Shown here piece by piece: positions 51,501 to 60,000 of a stretch of 60,000 nt of DNA. Origin of the DNA: Bolinopsis microptera (Eukaryota; Ctenophora; Tentaculata; Lobata; Bolinopsidae); contig NC_087072.1 in assembly GCF_026151205.1 (NCBI RefSeq), positions 7,490,084 to 7,550,083 of the forward strand, written 5' to 3'. The translations under genes were made by a program, and so were the position numbers. Every line of letters starts with the position of its first letter. The first letter of the stretch is position 1. A model generated the notes under the pieces. The model worked only from the letters and a program-made list of their open reading frames with translations, was not told the DNA's origin and ran no database searches.

Positions 51501-54500
51501 TGAAAGGCTTTAGATAATACCCAATATCTTATCATCCGGACACTGGCACTGGCAGAGGCAATAAAGCCTGGAAATAGACGGCAGTAAAGCTGCAGTGATG
51601 TGCTGCATTAGTACCCGTGATACGAGTCCAGGTTCCTGATCACGTGACCGGGAAACCAACTCATTATGCAGACTGCTCGGATCCTGCTTTATTCACCGTT
51701 TATTGCACTGTTGTGGTATTTAATTTAATTACCACCGCACTGCCGTGCTCAGCACTGCATTAGTTAATTAACATATTAGATCAGGTAAGGTCTAGACTCT
51801 AGAGGTATGGTCTGCTGACCGGAAGACGATTAGTACCGCTAGACAATTTTACTGCGCGGTAGATCTCTTTTATTCGAGTCAGGGACTTGACGTATTAATT
51901 GACGTCCCCTAAACTTCTGTGATCATGTCTTTGATAGTGTACGACGTACGTCAGTGATGCCTACTAAGTACTAATATTCAATCACTCATGTTACAGAAAC
52001 AACTTAAGTGGACTTTAAACACTAATGATGACTTGGGAAAATTTAGTCACCATAGCTTGTCGTACGTGCATGAAAATTAAGACAACTTGATTGCAAGAAT
52101 GGTAGAAACCGTATAATAAAATACTACTCAGATGCTTAGTAGATGAAAAGCAGAAAGGAAATGCTCTCTTTCTATGTTTAAAGAGCATGTCTTACTAAGT
52201 CTAAAGGAATCCTTTGTAAGAATTTTGTTGCAGGAAAAATTTCCCAGGGATCCCTAAATCCAGACGAACTGTGAGTCAGAAAATTGCTAAACCTCCATAT
52301 TTGAGCTGGGATTGCGCAGAAACCGAAGTCAACCCGGAGATTACAGACAAATTTGAGTTAGCAAAATGATTAAATGGCATTTACGGGAATAATCAGAAAA
52401 TTTGGTTCCCTAACCCGGTAACTCGGTTGGTTAAGCATGTTAATAACCCTTCAGATTAAACACACGACACTGTGACCGGGCAAGTAACTCAGGCTCATTG
52501 TCCTCAATGTCCTCATTGTCCTCAATGTCCTCATTGTCCTGCAGCAATGAAGAGCAGGTCATGCTTTAAGAGGCCTGGTTATACAATACCCTCTACCGAT
52601 CATGCTATCATCACATTAACCATCACTGAATCATCCCGGGTGGAATGTGTCCTGGTTTCCTGGTGCTCAATGTGATATAACACAAGGGGGCATGAGGTGG
52701 ACAAGTATTGTTGCATTGTGATGTAGGTTTAGTATTGTAAACTGCGAGCTGCCTGACTAATCTGCTGATACGATCACTGTGATGTCATATAACTGAGTGC
52801 ACTGACGTTTCATAGCTCTGCACTAATTTGCTGTCAAATGGAAAGAGATTGATTATCAGGGAACTATGAGTCTTTGACCACCTGCCAAACAGTTATTAAA
52901 GATAGGTAACTAATATCAGGAGCATGTACCAGGCACGGCATGATAATTGAAGCCGCCCGGTTCAGCAGTGATTTTATATAGCTGTAGCCGGAAATCGAAC
53001 AAGGAGAACTGTGTTCAGTGTTATTATAAACTGCACACCAGTTATAGGAGCCACTTGGGTAGTGGGTACGGTGAACACTGCGCTAACTTAGATGTAGACC
53101 ACACATTTTTACAACAAAACCGCCGATCCTGAGGCAGAACCCTTATTCCTTGTCAGAGTCGGAGATATTTAGGGGCTTTCTTGCCCGTGGGGCGCGGTCG
53201 GTTATTGAACAGTGAACTGATGCCAGAAATGCTTTCACTTCTAATTTTGGACATCATAATCTTACTAAAATACTTGTTGTATGATGTAATAAAATTATTC
53301 AATTATTTAGGGAAAAAAAGAAAGAAAAATCACTAGAATTACAAATTCAGTTGAAACAGTTATCAGATAAGATTCCATCAACAAAACTTGACTTGGACAG
53401 CAGAATTACTGGTCTCTAATTTAGACCTGGCTTCACAAATTGAGATCCACTGTTAACAAAAGCGCCAATTATACCCAGCTCCTGTGTACATCCGCTCAAT
53501 TTCAGTTCTAGTTACACTCCGATAGTCTCTGGTAACTTCATTCCCAGATCCAATTTCACGACTAACAATGGCCGCGCTAACAAGATCCAGATAGCAAACG
53601 TTCGAAACCAAAGCACAAGGATTCCTCAAGGAATTAGGAAAGCCTCTATACAGTAAACTCAAATTATTGATAACGGTATTTAGAGGGCGGTGGCACAAGT
53701 TTTGTTGACGTGTGAAATGTAACATCAATCCTGAGACTTGATTGGTCGATACTGCAAGCAGATTCGTTTATCGATGTCACCATGTCACAAACCAGTGCCA
53801 CCTCCATATTATCCGCATCATCATTACTTCACAATTAAAAGCCTCCTTAACAAAAATCCGCTCAGGACTACACGAAACGTTTAAACTTTTATAAACTTAT
53901 ACAAATCTAGAACTCGTAGATTGCCTAAATTTCCTGAATACTGAAGCCAAATAGGGGTTATCTATTGGTAACTTTTAAAATATGCAGCACAGGTACACAT
54001 AACTTCCAGTCATGAAATAAGGATAAAGACCTGTTATTAGAGTGTACAGGATAACGAGGAGCATGACACGGATCTGTTGGAGATTACCACTCGTTATATA
54101 ATGGGAACTTAATAAGGCGTCATGAGCCCAGACTTCACCTTATTTGTTTACTTTTTGCGGCATGCACTCTGCACATAACATACTATTACCATGTTTATGA
54201 CATCAACAAGACCGGTTTGGATTGTCTCCTATCAGATGATTGGGAAAGATTTCGGGTCACCACTTCATGACCTTTTTGAAATTTAAAATCGGAAATCTCT
54301 ATTATTTTTTCCTGTCCCTTTAGATTTTACCTGTCAATCTAACCAGTGTATACGTCATCAAGAATGTTGATTGTACTACCGGTTTTCTAAGTGATTTTCT
54401 AATTTTTACAGCTCTAAAAAATTACTTTACTTTAATTCATTAAAAATAACCCCCACTATTCCAGGTTCTAACGGACCTACCGGGCGTGGATCCAAGTAGC

Positions 54501-54617
54501 GAGGCAGTAAAAAGTGTGATGGGTAACATACAGAAAGGTAACAAGAACAAGAAGGAGGACGATGATGACGATGAGCCTGGGGAGAGTGCCGCCAAGAAAC
54601 CCAGAAAAGACAACTGA
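33531..54617 (+). CDS. PSMD4: PSMD4/Rpn10, 26S proteasome ubiquitin receptor, spread over 21 kb
   Basis: Eight exons join in phase: 33531-33620, 33872-33988, 34191-34279, 44936-45135, 47883-48036, 48479-48632, 48816-48947 and 54465-54617, giving 362 residues (human 377). Residues 1-190 form the VWA domain ([63 protein letters not shown]). [12 protein letters not shown] follows, then one ubiquitin-interacting motif, [16 protein letters not shown] (about 251-268), [17 protein letters not shown] and a KKED-rich acidic/basic tail. Rpn10 docks at the proteasome lid-base interface and captures polyubiquitin. Only the first of the two mammalian UIMs is obvious; the second appears degenerate or missing. 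Introns 3 (10.7 kb) and 7 (5.5 kb) contain whole genes; intron 4 is full of MITE DNA. Confidence 0.95.
33621..33752 (+). repeat. 17-base minisatellite starting exactly at PSMD4 intron-1 donor
   Basis: Seven perfect units of gttcgtgttaaccacgt plus a partial eighth. The first unit begins at base 1 of the intron, so its GT is the splice donor. Each junction creates CACGTG, the E-box core, giving a ladder of seven E-boxes spaced 17 bases apart. Confidence 0.95.
34561..37640 (-). CDS. MAN2B1: Lysosomal alpha-mannosidase (GH38), nested antisense in PSMD4 intron 3
   Basis: Two exons on the minus strand: 37640-37567 (signal peptide [17 protein letters not shown] plus TCNNSDE) and 37399-34561, joined in phase to about 970 residues (human MAN2B1 1011). 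Catalytic features: the zinc-binding [20 protein letters not shown], nucleophile Asp in [25 protein letters not shown], and [18 protein letters not shown] with zinc His residues. The usual Trp after DVG is Lys here. The enzyme removes alpha-linked mannose from N-glycans in lysosomes. There are many NxS/T sites. The ATG sits directly after an acceptor (CCTAAAAG). The gene lies wholly between PSMD4 exons 3 and 4 on the opposite strand. Confidence 0.93.
37650..40660. other. PSMD4 intron 3 between mannosidase and VWD genes
   Basis: About 3 kb with no supported gene. The only structure I see is the pair of diverged repeats listed separately. The space must hold the mannosidase promoter (pointing left) and the VWD gene promoter (pointing right), so the two genes are divergent. 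Confidence 0.45.
38205..39335 (+). repeat. Diverged tandem duplication (about 400-base units, 705 apart)
   Basis: The segment from 38207 (gctgtttcaaaagtagataa ... tggaattgtgagaactttgt) matches that from 38912 (ggtgtttcaaaagtaaataa ... tggaattgtgagaactttgt). Further in, aaacttgctccaaagt at 38499 matches 39208 with similar downstream words. The units have diverged by substitutions and small indels. No coding frame. Confidence 0.7.
40686..42362 (+). CDS. Secreted Ig-VWD-C8 protein, nested in PSMD4 intron 3
   Basis: Single exon, 558 residues. Signal peptide [17 protein letters not shown] at the start; an acidic, Thr-rich linker; an Ig-like domain at about 75-195 ([11 protein letters not shown] ... 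[11 protein letters not shown]); a von Willebrand factor D domain at about 235-390 with the classic [14 protein letters not shown] start, CDYVLSL and the [13 protein letters not shown] calcium-type end; and a C8 region at about 425-475 ([37 protein letters not shown]). It is therefore an extracellular Cys-rich matrix or coat protein. No orthologue is named; Ig plus VWD combinations occur in cnidarian matrix and skeletal proteins. The ATG is 22 bases after an acceptor (GCAATTTTAG). It is on the same strand as its host gene. Confidence 0.9.
   Translation: MRLLPIVSTLLLILAVVRGFNEVEREETSNDFDSIDLPDLPTTGPADFTSSTTPEGPGEIGIFDPLPYPVIESYPQSLQLNVGDMAEFECKASDHADHMPNWPKHELFIEMFYEDDPKRDLTAVEHDWFEDVTKSTKSRPSHPKGRIDITEVAEIYLSKDAVTKEDEGWYRCRACIYKGDPENEACDKNYAKFYLRVKNEPGWQADEAESATTSTPYYQQPGAITFRESPRSSCQVFGDPHVITYDDMVYNMPSTSCDYVLSLDQGAASFFVYGRMRPCGNLVEGNCLESVTVYAKRDAIQLQRGWLVNHRGQKVETMRTSGPIEVGVFEVEFTGTTLEARVLLSEDQNEQDWLKIRWDGFMTLTIEVPQSTKTQGLCGNNNQDPIDDFDLWGQFNDNLILFAESMKVDRNWRCGAGSPAPSMDEVRGLCGDKKYGKAVIRCNKIFAIHSFENCVHDKRPYVDACIYDQCKGINIQNDLYDWMIIPKVDRVLPPGCNAAEAYAMKCSRKSWTKDGEIIAEIDMSEWEADLRTSNSCPSRAVKLDNIPKMGCPQSWMQY
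42363..43640. other. PSMD4 intron 3, no gene seen
   Basis: 3' flank of the VWD gene and the downstream flank of the LINE ORF1-like gene. I see no ORF2, poly(A) tract or other remnant of a LINE here, and no clear repeat. Confidence 0.5.
43641..44558 (-). CDS. LINE ORF1-like coiled-coil/RRM protein, solo and intact
   Basis: 305 residues, uninterrupted. The N-terminal half is helical with a coiled coil (about residues 90-150: [30 protein letters not shown]). The C-terminal half, from [16 protein letters not shown] through [24 protein letters not shown] and [18 protein letters not shown], matches the RRM plus C-terminal domain of L1/CR1-type ORF1 proteins, which coat LINE RNA. No reverse transcriptase frame follows on the minus strand, so this is either a truncated LINE or a captured gene. 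It lies in PSMD4 intron 3, antisense. Confidence 0.75.
   Translation of the reverse strand: MYIMVNKYLENLDNEIALNYSTLKFRSMYAEQILGAQIMLLNDMRQAAGVQKSNVLRKETLNKPQITKATLCDWMETFIDILDILDSYCSPLLFSATKLQDEIDQLKDEKIADQNTVIKLQGQLLEKKSEDLTSVQTTVKSELKAWSSVVKNSCSKALAPKKMKAALKRASEEEDRSQNLVIYGLPEKSEEILEKRVLEVLENIDEKPRIVSCCRMGRTVSDGGPAVKPIKFTLSGSDHVRQVLSKARKLREVEGYDSVYISPDRSAEQRAAFRKLVLEVKQKRELEPQRVHVIRNNKIVSSEKD
44750..44816 (+). repeat. Short tandem duplication
   Basis: gcacatcattaaggcttcta occurs twice, 38 bases apart, in PSMD4 intron 3 just upstream of exon 4. Confidence 0.85.
45284..45611. mobile_element. 328-bp MITE with 8-bp duplication in PSMD4 intron 4
   Basis: Ends GGGGGGGTACCAATGGCATA and its exact complement, flanked by the perfect 8-bp direct repeat ACTTGTGT at 45276-45283 and 45612-45619. 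Inside, the ggagaattggccaataaaaa block occurs as two direct copies, each near atggcataaatg words. No ORF. The 8-bp duplication suggests hAT or another superfamily making 8-bp staggered cuts. Confidence 0.9.
45971..46232 (+). repeat. 131-base tandem duplication, two near-identical copies
   Basis: aattttaacatcgatttatt starts at 45971 and again at 46102, with the whole 131-base unit repeated essentially unchanged, ending gaatattgttt. It is intronic (PSMD4 intron 4) and recent. Confidence 0.93.
46490..46783. repeat. Foldback repeat
   Basis: The left arm (acgcgctttttgctctggct ... gaggaatttggatccgat ... gtaggatatcaatattcaat, 46490-46585) is matched in reverse on the right (about 46700-46783). An extra copy of gtaggatatcaat lies in reverse near 46680-46700. 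Arms of about 90 bases with small indels. No ORF. Confidence 0.75.
46940..47583. mobile_element. Foldback/TIR element with GACCCCAACCGCC ends
   Basis: The outer ends are gaccccaaccgccaaacggt and its exact complement. The inverted arms continue through gcccgcggggcagccacgcc and a diverged part with catataaccat and ccctgaacaggcc words, roughly 130-180 bases each. The core (47090-47390) is non-coding. I find no convincing target-site duplication; a mirrored ggttggggtc just outside the left end complicates the boundary. Confidence 0.75.
48948..49400. other. PSMD4 intron 7, left part
   Basis: AT-rich intron sequence and the 3' flank of the EF-hand gene; nothing further recognised. Confidence 0.45.
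49406..49951 (-). CDS. Four-EF-hand calmodulin/centrin-like protein, nested in PSMD4 intron 7
   Basis: 181 residues, single coding exon, minus strand. Four EF-hand loops with good calcium ligands: residues 23-34 ([12 protein letters not shown]), 59-70 ([12 protein letters not shown]), 96-107 ([12 protein letters not shown]) and 132-143 ([12 protein letters not shown]). Spacing is as in calmodulin, but the sequence is divergent, and a 35-residue tail rich in Ala, Pro, Ser and Arg ([17 protein letters not shown]) is added. It is probably a cytosolic calcium sensor; I cannot assign calmodulin, centrin or troponin C firmly. The ATG directly follows the acceptor TGTATGTTCTAG on the minus strand, indicating an upstream leader exon or trans-splicing. 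It lies wholly inside PSMD4 intron 7, antisense. Confidence 0.88.
   Translation of the reverse strand: MEDIDNISKEKVEELRNIFKTFDDDDSGNITAQEFQYALTKMNVYLPKETVREMIWEYDTDGDCNLDFDEFLKLISRLDPRIGQEIEINKAFKLFDKNHDGFLSKVEIVDALVHFGINASDEDVEMIFSITDDNADGKISHAEFRNILFDAAAPEMPLSAMAAPGSPGSPKSGRARSPKRR
49965..54460. other. PSMD4 intron 7, right part, no gene seen
   Basis: About 4.5 kb with no coding region or RNA gene that I can support. It has a higher density of mixed-composition sequence than the other introns. The only repeat is tcctcaatgtcctcattgtc (about two and a half copies, 52500-52540). It must hold the EF-hand gene's promoter. Confidence 0.45.
52498..52542 (+). repeat. Short tandem repeat (tcctcattg)n
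   Basis: Five units of the 9-base words tcctcaatg / tcctcattg in tandem; non-coding, in PSMD4 intron 7. Confidence 0.85.
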
Positions 54618-54908
54618 TGACGTCATATCACCGTGATGACGTCATTATCTTCTAGAATCTGATGATATGTGTCATCAGAACGAACCTGACTTCAGATTAT
54701 TATCAACGACGGGGACCTGACTATCGGACACAGCGTGTCGAGTCTTGGTTTGGGACGTTTTGAAATTATACTGTTTATTTGATGTTATATAGTGGAAACT
54801 AAGGTGTTTCGATGTAAAAGTTAAATTTAATGGCATAAAATAACTTACTTATAAAAATATCTTTTCCAATTTGTTCAATTTTTAAAAATATGAATAAAAA
54901 AGTGGTGG
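54618..54908. promoter_or_regulatory. Convergent, overlapping 3' ends of PSMD4 and integrin alpha
   Basis: PSMD4 (+) stops at 54617 and the distal integrin exon (-) at 54909. The only AATAAA on + after PSMD4 is at 54893-54898, and a minus-strand AATAAA lies at 54774-54779 (TTTATT on +). If both are used, the two 3' UTRs overlap by about 120 bases or more. Confidence 0.5.
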
Positions 54909-55679
54909 TTACACTTTGGTTTCGGCATTATTATGATCGTCCATATTACTTAGAGGAACATGCCTGGTCTCATCGTCTTTACAGAAGCCACAGCAGCAAA
55001 CCATGATAATGACCGCTACTCCCAACAATAACAACCCAACAACTATAGCTACCAGTATTATCCAGCTGTAATCCTCCTTTCCCACTGCGGCCTCGGTTTC
55101 TACAAAGTCTGTCGCTGTAGCTGCTTGACCCTCAGGCCCGTAAACCAACGGGTTATTTGAAGTGTCTTGGGCTACTGCTATTATTTCGAAATATGGTGTT
55201 AACGTAAGATTGGTGTATGATATCTGTTCGGTATCTATACTATCGGTGTTCAAAACTGATAGAAATCTCACTGAGACCGTCTCATTCTTCCTCAACTTGC
55301 TGATATAACAAGTGAACTGTTTACAGTTCTTACTATCAACAGAACAGTCCATCTTGTTTCCCTCAGCACTCCCTGATAGCCGAGTCCCCACCTCCTCCTC
55401 TCTCTTACCCCTGCTAGGGTACCTCCACCCTGCCCCCTTCTTTCTGTGGGGCCACACTGTACTCCTACTCCATCTGGTTCCTGCTGCCACATTGTCCCAG
55501 TCTTCAGTGCTGAGAGTAAAGTGGGGACTAAAGGAGCACTCTACCAAGTCACTGGAAGGGATGTAATTGTAGAGGTCCAGGAGCAGGGTCCGGGTACCGG
55601 GGTAGTAGAGGGGCCAGTGCCCCATTATCTCCACTGCGTCGTAGCTGTGGGCTATTAGGCTGTGCTCAGAGATGTAAAC
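54909..55679 (-). CDS. Integrin alpha alternative terminal exon B (divergent tail)
   Basis: Starts after the acceptor TGTATTTACAG with VYISEHSLIAHSYDAVEI, phase 0, the same as exon A. It encodes the end of the calf-2 region, including CKQFTCYISKLRKNETVSVRF and the shared VYGPEGQAA motif, then the membrane helix YSWIILVAIVVGLLLLGVAV and the tail CCCGFCKDDETRHVPLSNM to the stop. The canonical GFFKR membrane-proximal motif is GFCKD here, and a Cys-rich IMVCCCGFC could be palmitoylated (inference). It lies distal to exon A with nothing of integrin type between them. Confidence 0.85.
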   Translation of the reverse strand, partial: VYISEHSLIAHSYDAVEIMGHWPLYYPGTRTLLLDLYNYIPSSDLVECSFSPHFTLSTEDWDNVAAGTRWSRSTVWPHRKKGAGWRYPSRGKREEEVGTRLSGSAEGNKMDCSVDSKNCKQFTCYISKLRKNETVSVRFLSVLNTDSIDTEQISYTNLTLTPYFEIIAVAQDTSNNPLVYGPEGQAATATDFVETEAAVGKEDYSWIILVAIVVGLLLLGVAVIIMVCCCGFCKDDETRHVPLSNMDDHNNAETKV

Positions 55680-58600
55680 CTGTAAATACACGAACATTTT
55701 ATTGTAAATCATACTCTATTCTTTAGTAAAGTTGCTTGTAAATTACCGAAATATAGAAACCACAATCTTCACTGCATTTTAGAGATTTATCAGATCATCC
55801 CAAGTTGAATATCCTTGTTACAAATCGCTATCCAACAGATTCAATTAATTAATGTCATGTTACCAAATTTAGCACTCTATGAGTGTAAACAAAGCAAGCA
55901 ATGTATAGATTACACACTTGCATCGTGTACATTGACCTGGCGAGTGAGGAAATGAATCCAATTATGTTTGATATAGAGACCAAGCATTGTTCAACCACAT
56001 GTACAAAATAGAGGATGGTTTACAAAAATATCAAATCAATATACTGTACACACACGAACTCAAATATAACTTTATATTTTATCAAAATATGCCTCTGACT
56101 TTGGGGGTTGAACTCAATATCAGGTTAAGTCTCAATTTAAAGATACAAAAGTACAAATAATCAATATTAAGAACACCTATAATCTATTAAGCACAAAACG
56201 TTTCAAGGTGTTGTTCTTTAGGTTATGTCAGGTTGCAGCTCACTCCGAGGTTTAACCTCACTCTGAGGTTTAACGTCACCCTTCTGCCGCATGTTCATGT
56301 GCCTGTGCTGTGACTGCTGGTGGTGCTTTACGTTTGAAGAAGCCGCACTTCCATAGTATAATAATGATAAGAACTAACAACAAAATACCAGCAATAATTG
56401 ATCCTATGATAATCCACAGATAGTTCCGTCTTGTGGCTGAGCTCGGATAGAACTGAGACTTCATCGCACTCTTACCCTCCGGACCAAACACGAAATCCTC
56501 CTGGTCCACCTTGGTAACACTCACGAAGGACGTGACATTGATATTACCCACATTATACAAGGTGGACTCCCAGAGCCGCGCGTAGAACTTGATCTTGATA
56601 GTGTTATCCTTGTCCAGCCTGGTAATGTAGCAGTTGAAGTTGCGACACCCCTGCATGTCAGTGTCCGCACAGTTCACAGGGGGTCGGTCCTGCGGGGTTT
56701 CCTTGTCAGCCGCCCTCCTCTTACGTACTGTGTTATCCTTCACATCCGCGTCGTTAATGATACCGTTAGAGACACAATACGTGTTGTCTTCTGTAGGGTC
56801 CTCAATACTGACATGTACCAGGTACAGCAGGTAGTCCTCGTTGTTTCCCATGAATTCCGGCCAGTTTACCTCCAGAACTACGTTATCAAATGCTTCTTCC
56901 TGGGCTCCATCTGCTATGCTCACCTGAGTACACATTCTGTTAGGACTTTGATATATGTCGGTCATGACGTGTGCTGTCTGTCAGTCATATTGTCTGTAAG
57001 TCTACTGGTTTCTCTAGTTGCTCGGGCTGTCACCCTGTTTGTCTGTTAGTCTGTCTGTTTTCTGTTGTTCCTAAGTCTGTTTGTTCCTGAGTCTGTCTGT
57101 GTTTCTAACCCTTTGTTTGCATTGCTTACTACTATAACATGTAATATACATACAATCTAAATGTTACACTAACCTCAAGTTCATGTCTAACATCCGGACC
57201 AATAGCTTTAGCAGTAGATGGAGAGGAGCCGTCATCCTTTACATCATTACTGTAAGGTTGTCTCTCTCTGAGAGGTCTGCCTAACAGTTCTATTCCAGCA
57301 GGGTACCCCACTTGTATCGTTACCTTCTGGTTGTTATCTCCCAGTAGGGTTTCTGAGGGGAACACCACTTTAGATCTTAAGTTGAGCATTTTTTTAACAT
57401 AGATATTTGGTGGAGGAAATTACAGGAAGCTCTGTCCTGTTCAGTTTGCACTTGAAAAACAAATTACCATGCGTTGAACTTGATTTGGTTTACAAAAAAA
57501 GAAGGAACTACTACAAGTATTCACAAACCTAGCTCTTCACTGGGTTCCTGGACCCTTGCATTGAAATCAAACAAGAGTGTCTTCTGGGACAAATCTTCGA
57601 TATTAGTGGTAATGACGGACAAGCCGAATATCTCGCTAGCTCCGACCTGTAGTTCCTGGGAGAGAGAGCAGATGACCTTGTTGGTGAGATCCTCGTCTTG
57701 TTTTGTGATGCACTTGATGTGTCCTATATCCTCTTCGCTCTGACCTCCGATAGCTTGCCTTCTGTTGAAGATGATGTTCCGTGGCAGGGTGATGGACAGT
57801 TCCGATCTGAATGCATCGTCTTCTCCCTTGTTTGTAACCTGGTTGATTGTAGATTGTTTTAGATGGTTTACATTTTTGGTCACTATAATTCTTGTTCGCA
57901 ATGCAGCAAAAAGATAACTTTAACTAAGTAACCTTTTTCAAAGTTTTACTCATCTCATTTTCCACCACCATTTCAAACAATTTACTTACATTTATACTGA
58001 AGACAACGTAATCTGTTCGATCAATGGCGATAGCTTCGTAACCTTTAGGGCTGATCTCGAACTGTATGGGAGAAAGTTGTAGGTCTGCCTGACACACCCC
58101 GCTGGGTTTGGTACACCCAGACTGCATTACCACTCTGTCCTCTGTAAGGGGTTGTTCGTTTTTCATTCATTTGGATTTTAACGAAATTAAGGTATGATGA
58201 TTCTCTTGAGCTGTAAGGGGAAAAATTAATGAAGGGAGGTTCATCAGTTATGGAAAATGTAGGGGTATGATCGAGCAAGACTCACCTGCAGCATCGATGA
58301 GTTTATCATTAAGTGTAACCCTGTTACTAAAGGACCGACTGTCCTTAACATCCGCTTCCAGCTTGAAGTAAATATGTCTGAAGTCGTAAATCTCGTCGTT
58401 AAAGTATGATTTGAACATTGAGGTACAAGACTGTGTCCCATCTGTGCTCACCACTGTTCTACCCATCAGCCTCTGTGATTTAGGATCACTTGTGCTAGGC
58501 TTGAAGTACATCCTGAACCCTTTAGCGTTTTTGTAGTCTGAGATAAGTGTGTAGTTAACCTCTATTTCTTGGCTGGTTCCATCCACAACTCCCTTCAGAT

Positions 58601-60000
58601 ATTTGAAACATATCTTGATGTCCACTGCGGCTGCTTGATAGCTAGGGTTATCAGGCACATTGACCCTCAGATCTGGGTTTGTTCTGTTTATGGGGGTGTC
58701 CGGGCTGATAACGATATCAGCCTCCAGATCTATGATGGGCAGGGCTCTCAAATAAACAGCGTGACCATTCATAGTTCCCACCATTACGTCCGGGTAACTG
58801 TTATCGTCCATGTCCACCCCTCCGTCCAGACTCCACCCAAAAGTGGTGATGGTGTTGGACACAGCCAGGTCGCTAGGCCTGATCGTTTGTCTGGGCTCTG
58901 TCTCCACTCCACTTTCTGTTCCTAGATATAGATAAACCACACCGTTTGAATCGAAGGGTGCCCCGATCATCACATCCCCCATTCCATCTTTGTTGATATC
59001 TCCGACACTTCTTACCGAGCTACCGAACTGTGTGTTCTGGATAACTCCTCCGTCTATGATGGTTGGTTTGTCAGAGAGGTATTCTTCTCGACTACCGTAG
59101 TAAATATAGGCTCGTCCAGTGGACTGTAGTCGGGCTTGTCCTGAAGTAAAGATGTGGTTACGGTACTTCATTATTATGGTAAGTAGTTTTAAGATGAACT
59201 GTGATGGTAGTTTATGTGGCTATTTCCGTGAGTTGTTCAATATCATCCTATGAAATGATAAGTGAATATGGCAATGGCCAGCATCAAAGAACATTTTCAT
59301 GATTTGCTGGCATAATAATAAAAATGTCTGTTATTAGTCACTAATTAGTCGAATGTAGACAGTAAAATTAAGTACTGACCTGAAGTGTCTCTGGAGTAGT
59401 AGGGAGCGCCCACTATGACATCAGCCAACCCATCACCATTGAAATCCCCACAATCCATGCTGTAGCCGAAGTACTCCCCAATCTGCATCCCGTCAATCTC
59501 CTTGTGTTTGTTCAACTTGTCCCCTGTTTTAGTGTACACGAATAGTTTGCCCATGTAGGTCTCTGCTCGGGGTGCTGCTGTAATAACATCATCTTTACCG
59601 TCTCCGTTAACGTCACAGATAGCAGTACTGTAACCCGTGTACCATTGTCCAGCCTCTCCTCCCTCTTTCTGTTTTGAAGTCTCTGTTGACCCTGGTTTTG
59701 TAAAGTCGTTGCCCATGTAAGCTTTACCTTCTCCTCTGTAAGCTCCGGGTCCCCCGAAGACGAAGGAGGTTGGTGAGATGTCCACGCTGGTTCCAGCTTG
59801 ACAAGATGACATTTCGTAGCCAGTCGTATCTCCCCAACAAGGTTTATATTCAGCTAACTGACTAGACAAGTCCCCGGAAACTACCGAGCATTTGCCAATG
59901 GGCTGGGTATCGAAAGTGTTTTTGCGGTAGTTGTGAGCTACTCTGATGAACCTGTGAGCACATGCCACTACGTATTCACCGTTAGACCTTAGTGCCACGC
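54909..60000 (-). CDS. Integrin alpha chain, 5' end beyond window, two alternative 3' exons
   Basis: Minus strand; the 5' part runs off the right edge. Exons in order: >60000-59380, 59140-58286, 58141-57990, 57838-57525, about 57357-57174, then either 56923-56276 (A) or 55679-54909 (B). FG-GAP/calcium repeats of the beta-propeller: DVNGDGKDDVITAAP, DFNGDGLADVIVGAPYYS, DINKDGMGDVMIGAPFDS, and a weaker DMDDNSYPDVMVG. Thigh and calf segments follow (QSGCTKPSG, TNKGEDDAFRSELSITLP, IGPDVRHELE). No inserted I domain is seen. It pairs with an integrin beta at the cell surface for matrix adhesion. Junction phases agree at each step; the 57525/57357 junction is the least certain. Confidence 0.9.
55690..56270. 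other. Intron or 3' UTR between integrin terminal exons A and B
   Basis: AT-rich, with no ORF or repeat. If exon A is used, this contains its 3' UTR; if exon B is used, it is intron. A short direct repeat (ctccgaggtttaacctcactctgaggtttaac) lies just past the exon A stop. Confidence 0.5.
56276..56923 (-). CDS. Integrin alpha alternative terminal exon A (canonical GFFKR tail)
   Basis: Starts after the acceptor TGTACTCAG with VSIADGAQEEAFDNVVLEV, phase 0. It contains a basic RKRR site (VRKRRAADK), a possible furin cleavage site as in many integrin alphas, then CRNFNCYITRLDKDNTIKI, the FVFGPEGKSAM motif, the membrane helix YLWIIIGSIIAGILLLVLII and the tail WKCGFFKRKAPPAVTAQAHE to the stop. The GFFKR motif binds talin-regulated partners and clasps the beta subunit. 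It is homologous to exon B, so one arose from the other by duplication. Confidence 0.88.
   Translation of the reverse strand: MSIADGAQEEAFDNVVLEVNWPEFMGNNEDYLLYLVHVSIEDPTEDNTYCVSNGIINDADVKDNTVRKRRAADKETPQDRPPVNCADTDMQGCRNFNCYITRLDKDNTIKIKFYARLWESTLYNVGNINVTSFVSVTKVDQEDFVFGPEGKSAMKSQFYPSSATRRNYLWIIIGSIIAGILLLVLIIIILWKCGFFKRKAPPAVTAQAHEHAAEG

Follow-up and report, generated by a model that had tools for sequence, protein, structure and literature searches.

The window analyzed here is a 60,000-nucleotide stretch of contig C1 of the ctenophore Bolinopsis microptera (C1:7490084-7550083, from an assembly of 264.65 Mb in 232 contigs), and its minus strand holds a complete integrin alpha gene made up of five shared exons followed by two possible last exons, here called A and B. 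In keeping with a ctenophore source, part of a glutamate-receptor ligand-binding domain encoded in this genome finds its best PDB matches in the chain named ML032222a (116.7 bits) and in 4zdm (103.1 bits), proteins of Mnemiopsis and Pleurobrachia, the next family reaching 49.6 bits. By gene model and Pfam, the in-window part of exon 1 (59380-60000) encodes FG-GAP repeats of the beta-propeller; the exon runs past the window end to an ATG 412 bases outside (C1:7550495), and the chain starts with what was judged, by eye only, to be a signal peptide, MILLVSVLLVGYCSA. On the same evidence exon 2 (58286-59140) carries FG-GAP repeats and the start of the thigh domain (Integrin_A_Ig_1), both families scoring above cut-off, and exon 4 (57529-57838) carries Integrin_A_Ig_2 barely below it (22.6 versus 24 bits). 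Between these two lies exon 3 (57990-58141), which has an AG acceptor and a GT donor and keeps the frame. Exon 5 (57174-57352) is the shared exon that precedes the choice; it has no Pfam match of its own and ends with ...GPDVRHELE at the donor GAG/GTTAGT, in phase 0. The introns between the five shared exons measure 239, 144, 151 and 176 bases, and all are GT-AG.

Exon A (56276-56923), recognized by homology, gene model and Pfam, is 250 bases from exon 5. It follows the acceptor TACTCAG, begins at 56923 and reads VSIADG...CYITRL...FGPEG...WKCGFFKR...AAEG, passing through calf-2, a furin-type site, the membrane helix and the tail to a TGA stop codon at 56278-56276. An 18-base tandem repeat (2.3 copies) at 56239-56279 of the window covers this stop codon. 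Exon B (54909-55679), recognized by homology, gene model and codon use, is 1494 bases from exon 5; it follows the acceptor TTTACAG, begins at 55679 and reads VYISEH...CYISKL...YGPEG...CCCGFCKD...AETKV, likewise passing through calf-2, a furin-type site, a longer membrane helix and a tail that ends in ETKV, with a TAA stop codon at 54911-54909. Both joins are in phase 0, and the joined models are open from ATG to stop, at 1058 aa for the A form and 1099 aa for the B form. What is exchanged between them is almost all of calf-2 together with the helix and the tail. An earlier note on this DNA had placed both exons in phase 0 after the ...GPDVRHELE exon, and its coordinates, phases and landmarks are right to the base. 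It had also called the two exons mutually exclusive, a term that holds for alternative last exons but not in the sense of internal mutually exclusive exons. The membrane helix of the A form was judged by eye and from a PDB alignment; PF00357 scores 17.7 bits on this form, below its cut-off of 20.2.

Homology and coding evidence for exon B

When the 264.65-Mb genome was searched with exon A, eight of the ten matched places were integrin tails. The two others were dropped on inspection, C6:4646209 being a membrane protein of another type and C9:6762721 being noise. The non-self matches include six other integrin alpha genes and exon B (E 4.5e-14), and the best non-self match of exon B is in turn exon A (E 1.1e-13), confirming the claim of the earlier note that the two exons are homologous. 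The closest match of exon A is a paralogue at 75.6 bits, with exon B at 59.4 bits. In a global alignment the identity of A and B is 28%, and all four calf-2 cysteines are common to both (C50, C85, C93 and C98 in A; C48, C112, C119 and C124 in B). In each exon the first two of these cysteines flank a furin-type site (consensus R-X-K/R-R), RKRR in A and RGKR in B. Against the PDB, integrin alpha chains account for five of the six sequences matched by exon B at E <= 1, all of them weak matches, the best at E 0.021. Because of this homology and the exons that it shares with the A form, the product of B is taken to be an integrin alpha isoform, though one that lacks a GFFKR-type motif.

The coding character of exon B was assessed against shuffled sequences, with a codon-score training set built without exons A and B. 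None of 20,000 single-base shuffles stays open as long as its 256-codon frame, and its codon score of 0.195 compares with 0.073 +/- 0.032 (maximum 0.182) in 2,000 shuffles, frame 0 being the best of six. Taken together, the evidence on exon B, drawn from this one genome, argues for selection. The contrary reading takes exon B for a functionless remnant, once the last exon of another integrin gene in tandem with this one and now seldom or never spliced in; in its favor, the Pfam calf-2 model (Ig_3) gives B 21.7 bits, below the 23.6 cut-off, where A reaches 53.9, and among the seven terminal regions compared in a tree no branches are longer than those of B and of the C1:6168k gene. We consider such a relic quite unlikely, given that B has kept its frame open, its resemblance to A and the shared cysteines, has an intact acceptor, stop codon and AATAAA and uses codons as genes do, and that inspection by eye shows no further integrin-like frame in the stretch from A to the convergent gene downstream.

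The tree in question was made from the part from the second cysteine onward and includes seven of the eight regions, the split C9:2619k gene being left out. The branch leading to exon B is long, and just 32% of 200 bootstrap trees place A and B together. Because of this value, and because A is closest to a paralogue, it is not proven that B arose by duplication of A. A DNA search of the genome for a second copy of exon B gave one match, the window copy alone, which rules out a recent or assembly duplicate. As to the other alpha genes, the matched part of the one at C1:6168543 lies in a single 1097-codon frame and is apparently intronless there, unlike the gene in the window, and upstream of the C9:2619k gene there are four near-identical frames with a spacing of 405 bases (153-1689 of the extracted locus).

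Beyond exon B, a plus-strand frame (54450-54617) ends at 54617, 291 bases away; its C-terminus, read by eye, is presumably that of the proteasome subunit PSMD4. This convergent frame leaves little room for another gene behind exon B. The first AATAAA after the PSMD4-like frame, at 54893-54898 on the plus strand, is 10 bases from the stop codon of exon B, so the 3' ends of the two genes probably overlap. A further reading would assign exon B to a separate transcript, never joined to the integrin gene described here. This reading is rejected as highly improbable, since the acceptor at the start of exon B matches exon 5 in phase, and exon B has neither a signal peptide nor a head of its own and is followed at the distance just given by the stop codon of the convergent gene.

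Membrane helix, inner clasp and beta partners

The helix and tail of exon B were compared with those of exon A and of the six other alpha genes of the same genome, the seven non-B tails being read up to the first in-frame stop. The distance from the Trp that opens the helix to the motif is 24 residues in all seven tails, whereas B has 25. At the second position ahead of the motif, Lys or Arg is found in seven of seven and Cys in B, and at motif position 5 the same seven have Arg where B has Asp. The motif itself reads (G/N)FF(K/N/T/S)R in A and the six paralogues and GFCKD, preceded by a CCC run, in B; a GFFKR-type motif after the membrane helix is present in the A form (WKCGFFKR) and absent from the B form. 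The tail comparison thus bears out the earlier description of two exons that each carry a helix, tail and stop codon, with GFFKR in one and GFCKD after a CCC cluster in the other. By eye, the outer small-xxx-Gly helix contact is retained, as AIVVG in B and SIIAG in A, and exon B therefore looks to have kept the outer clasp and lost the inner one. It might be that the B helix packs in a new register. Class I PDZ ligands have a C-terminal S/T-x-hydrophobic consensus, and by pattern match the ETKV end of B is a predicted ligand of this class, as none of the seven other tails is. The CCC run may be a place of lipid attachment by palmitoylation.

The weight of these changes can be judged against the alphaIIb-beta3 pair, in which the resting state is maintained by the inner clasp. 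In the available text of PMC5207772, beta3 D723 pairs with alphaIIb R995 in a salt bridge that is called critical. The excerpts of PMC423134 describe that changing GFFKR to GAAKR, or cutting the chain before GFFKR, mimics activation and loosens helix pairing, and R995W is cited as constitutively activating in the title of a reference in PMC7717987. By analogy with alphaIIb-beta3, the B form is expected to be held less tightly in its inactive state, because it has Asp in place of Arg opposite the beta Asp, has lost a basic residue and has a helix one residue longer. However, the available part of PMC5207772 also describes no phenotype in beta1 knock-in mice with a disrupted inner clasp, and because of this the effect of the B form on activation is put forward here as a hypothesis. 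The idea that exon B could change activation, already raised in the earlier note, is in this way strengthened by the longer helix, the lost basic residue and the beta Asp, while its standing as a proposal is unaltered.

For the beta side, the ten genome hits of the beta cytoplasmic model were used, with reading around them, and the clasp Asp is kept in five of five integrin beta tails read. These are DKREY at C13:3085k, DKQEY twice (C13:2949k and C13:2995k, alike in the stretch printed), DQQEY on C7, where the first half of the tail was found by eye, and DKKLY on C10. A charge-swapped, basic beta partner for GFCKD is absent from these five tails, a set that stands apart from the loci on C8, at C13:14.13 Mb and at C1:22229153. 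The first two of these are further beta-like loci, whose tails have no counterpart among the hits of the beta cytoplasmic model; the third is a weak hit of that model (E 1.08) and contains a stop. The tail exons at C13:2949491 (minus strand) and C13:2994924 (plus strand), alike in the printed stretch, are 45 kb apart on opposite strands, and the pair arose either by inverted duplication or through an error of assembly, the 3-kb loci not being identical overall.

These beta tails also bear on another possibility, in which the B form is made but acts as a brake, its poor beta binding or intracellular retention resulting in less active integrin. Charge repulsion would be expected with the five beta tails read, and the usual clasp motif is lost in B. 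In the B form, however, nothing changes in the head and the greater part of the leg, where alpha and beta make most of their contact, and ETKV and CCC resemble gained contacts rather than decay; a braking role is therefore unlikely in our judgment.

One of the integrin beta genes, at C13:3085290-3088694, has three candidate alternative terminal tail exons. Its upstream exon ends with KWNT/GTAAGT in phase 0, and each of the three next exons follows an AG in phase 0. The first, DNNPLYKNPVTHFQNPLS..., lies within a 216-aa frame and keeps NPLY, with NPLS at the second place; the second and third, GLSPLYKEPTTKYTNPAYSGKLI-stop and GLSPLYKEPMTKYTNPLYTAAASRM-stop, have SPLY and a second NPxY (NPAY and NPLY). 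On sequence grounds, the arrangement of last exons described for the alpha gene seems to have its equivalent in this beta gene.

The 3' ends and the proposed choice of last exon

In the interval from the stop codon of A to exon B, motif search located a single canonical AATAAA, at 55703-55698 on the minus strand, with 18 bases separating it from the first base of exon B. About 0.65 such signals are expected by chance in this interval, and its position ahead of exon B is for that reason only suggestive. Weaker poly(A)-signal variants (GATAAA, AATATA and TATAAA) are present at 56083-56076. Cleavage usually takes place 10-30 bases downstream of AATAAA, which from 55703-55698 would hit the acceptor of exon B. 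If transcripts of the A form use this signal, 3'-end formation for A and splicing to B would therefore physically exclude each other. The likely poly(A) signal of B is an AATAAA at 54774-54779 (minus strand), 130 bases past its stop codon. As terminal exons, A and B thus share one donor and one phase, and each has its own stop codon and an AATAAA that is presumably used.

A second feature that may affect the choice is at the junction TACTCAG/GTGAGC (56918-56930), where a donor-like sequence comes directly after the acceptor of exon A. Once exon 5 is joined to A, the junction reads GAG/GTGAGC, which agrees with the consensus at seven of nine positions, the same as the native donor, and recursive removal of exon A through its donor-like start is possible. 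Chance is also a fair explanation for this start, because 15 of the 430 Val codons (3.5%) in the coding pieces counted begin with such a GTR-AGN sequence. RS-exons, in the available text of PMC6224609, offer a likeness in that exon A begins with the donor-like GTGAGC; unlike them, exon A is terminal and carries a stop codon, and its recursive use is putative. Three stretches were scanned for splicing-factor motifs: as raw counts, ACTAAC occurs once (57050) and YGCY 0, 6 and 2 times, and TGCATG, GCACG and TGGTGG are absent from all three.

Proposed function and relation to known integrin variants

Both exons are intact and in phase, are homologous to each other and end in stops of their own; the use of B in RNA and the function of B are what we infer. 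The best explanation, which we hold to be probable but not secure, is that this is one integrin alpha gene with two alternative last exons, in which B replaces the membrane module in its entirety, the replacement having a weaker inner clasp and new contacts in the tail. A conventional alpha chain with GFFKR would result when exon 5 is joined to A. If A and its poly(A) signal are skipped and exon 5 is joined to B, the same ligand-binding head would be carried by another lower leg, helix and tail. What decides would be whether the 3' end is formed at the AATAAA just ahead of exon B or the transcript is spliced past that signal. In the B form, the outer helix contact of the AxxxG type would be kept and the inner clasp lost, and its CCC and ETKV may offer lipid attachment and PDZ binding. 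With two modules on one head, splicing would thus set the activation threshold and the partners and leave ligand choice untouched.

A bolder version, which is tentative and on balance doubtful, is that of a built-in unclasped integrin: a lockable or a non-lockable module would be picked by recursive removal of A or through competition of poly(A) cleavage with splicing at overlapping sites. The three-tail beta gene, whose candidate exons differ in having the talin-type NPLY or the kindlin-type second NPxY, would widen this to a small combinatorial range of receptors if it is a partner, and isoform choice, not inside-out signalling alone, would set activation.

No integrin alpha that exchanges calf-2, helix and tail was found in the open-access literature searched, nor any account of ctenophore integrin splicing there, including the available text of PMC5395295 and PMC13245172. 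Relative to the integrin alpha variants found in that literature, in which the tail or a propeller segment differs, the exchange of a whole membrane module would be new. The GFFKR clasp is regarded as a shared integrin off-switch, and how generally it is required is not settled, as the beta1 knock-in mice of PMC5207772, so far as its available text goes, tolerate its disruption. If the proposal is true, an early-branching animal phylum would offer a natural experiment on this off-switch, with clasp-bearing and clasp-lacking modules carried by one and the same head. It would also mean that splice variation in integrins can swap an entire membrane module, beyond the tail.

In Dscam, homologous alternative exons change the membrane segment of a receptor; that is another receptor family and the exons are internal, unlike the last exons described here. 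Within the integrins, alpha3 and alpha7 have A/B cytoplasmic variants, as does alpha6. In the accessible text of PMC5930856, the alpha6 A and B variants differ in the tail with GFFKR common to both, and the C-terminus of alpha6A binds PDZ. The ctenophore gene is similar in that splicing at the 3' end of an alpha gene would alter the tail and a PDZ-ligand C-terminus. The contrast with tail-only variants drawn in the earlier note holds when compared with this pair: the alpha6 tails are otherwise unrelated and keep GFFKR, whereas here homologous exons would swap calf-2, helix and tail, and the motif changes. There is a further likeness to the X1/X2 variants of integrin alpha chains (alpha6 X1 and X1X2, as given in the same portion of PMC5930856), in which the extracellular part varies by splicing. 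Those variants, as the available text on ITGA6 X1X2 has it (PMC12564407), alter the beta-propeller, unlike the present gene, in which the leg and the membrane anchor would be exchanged.
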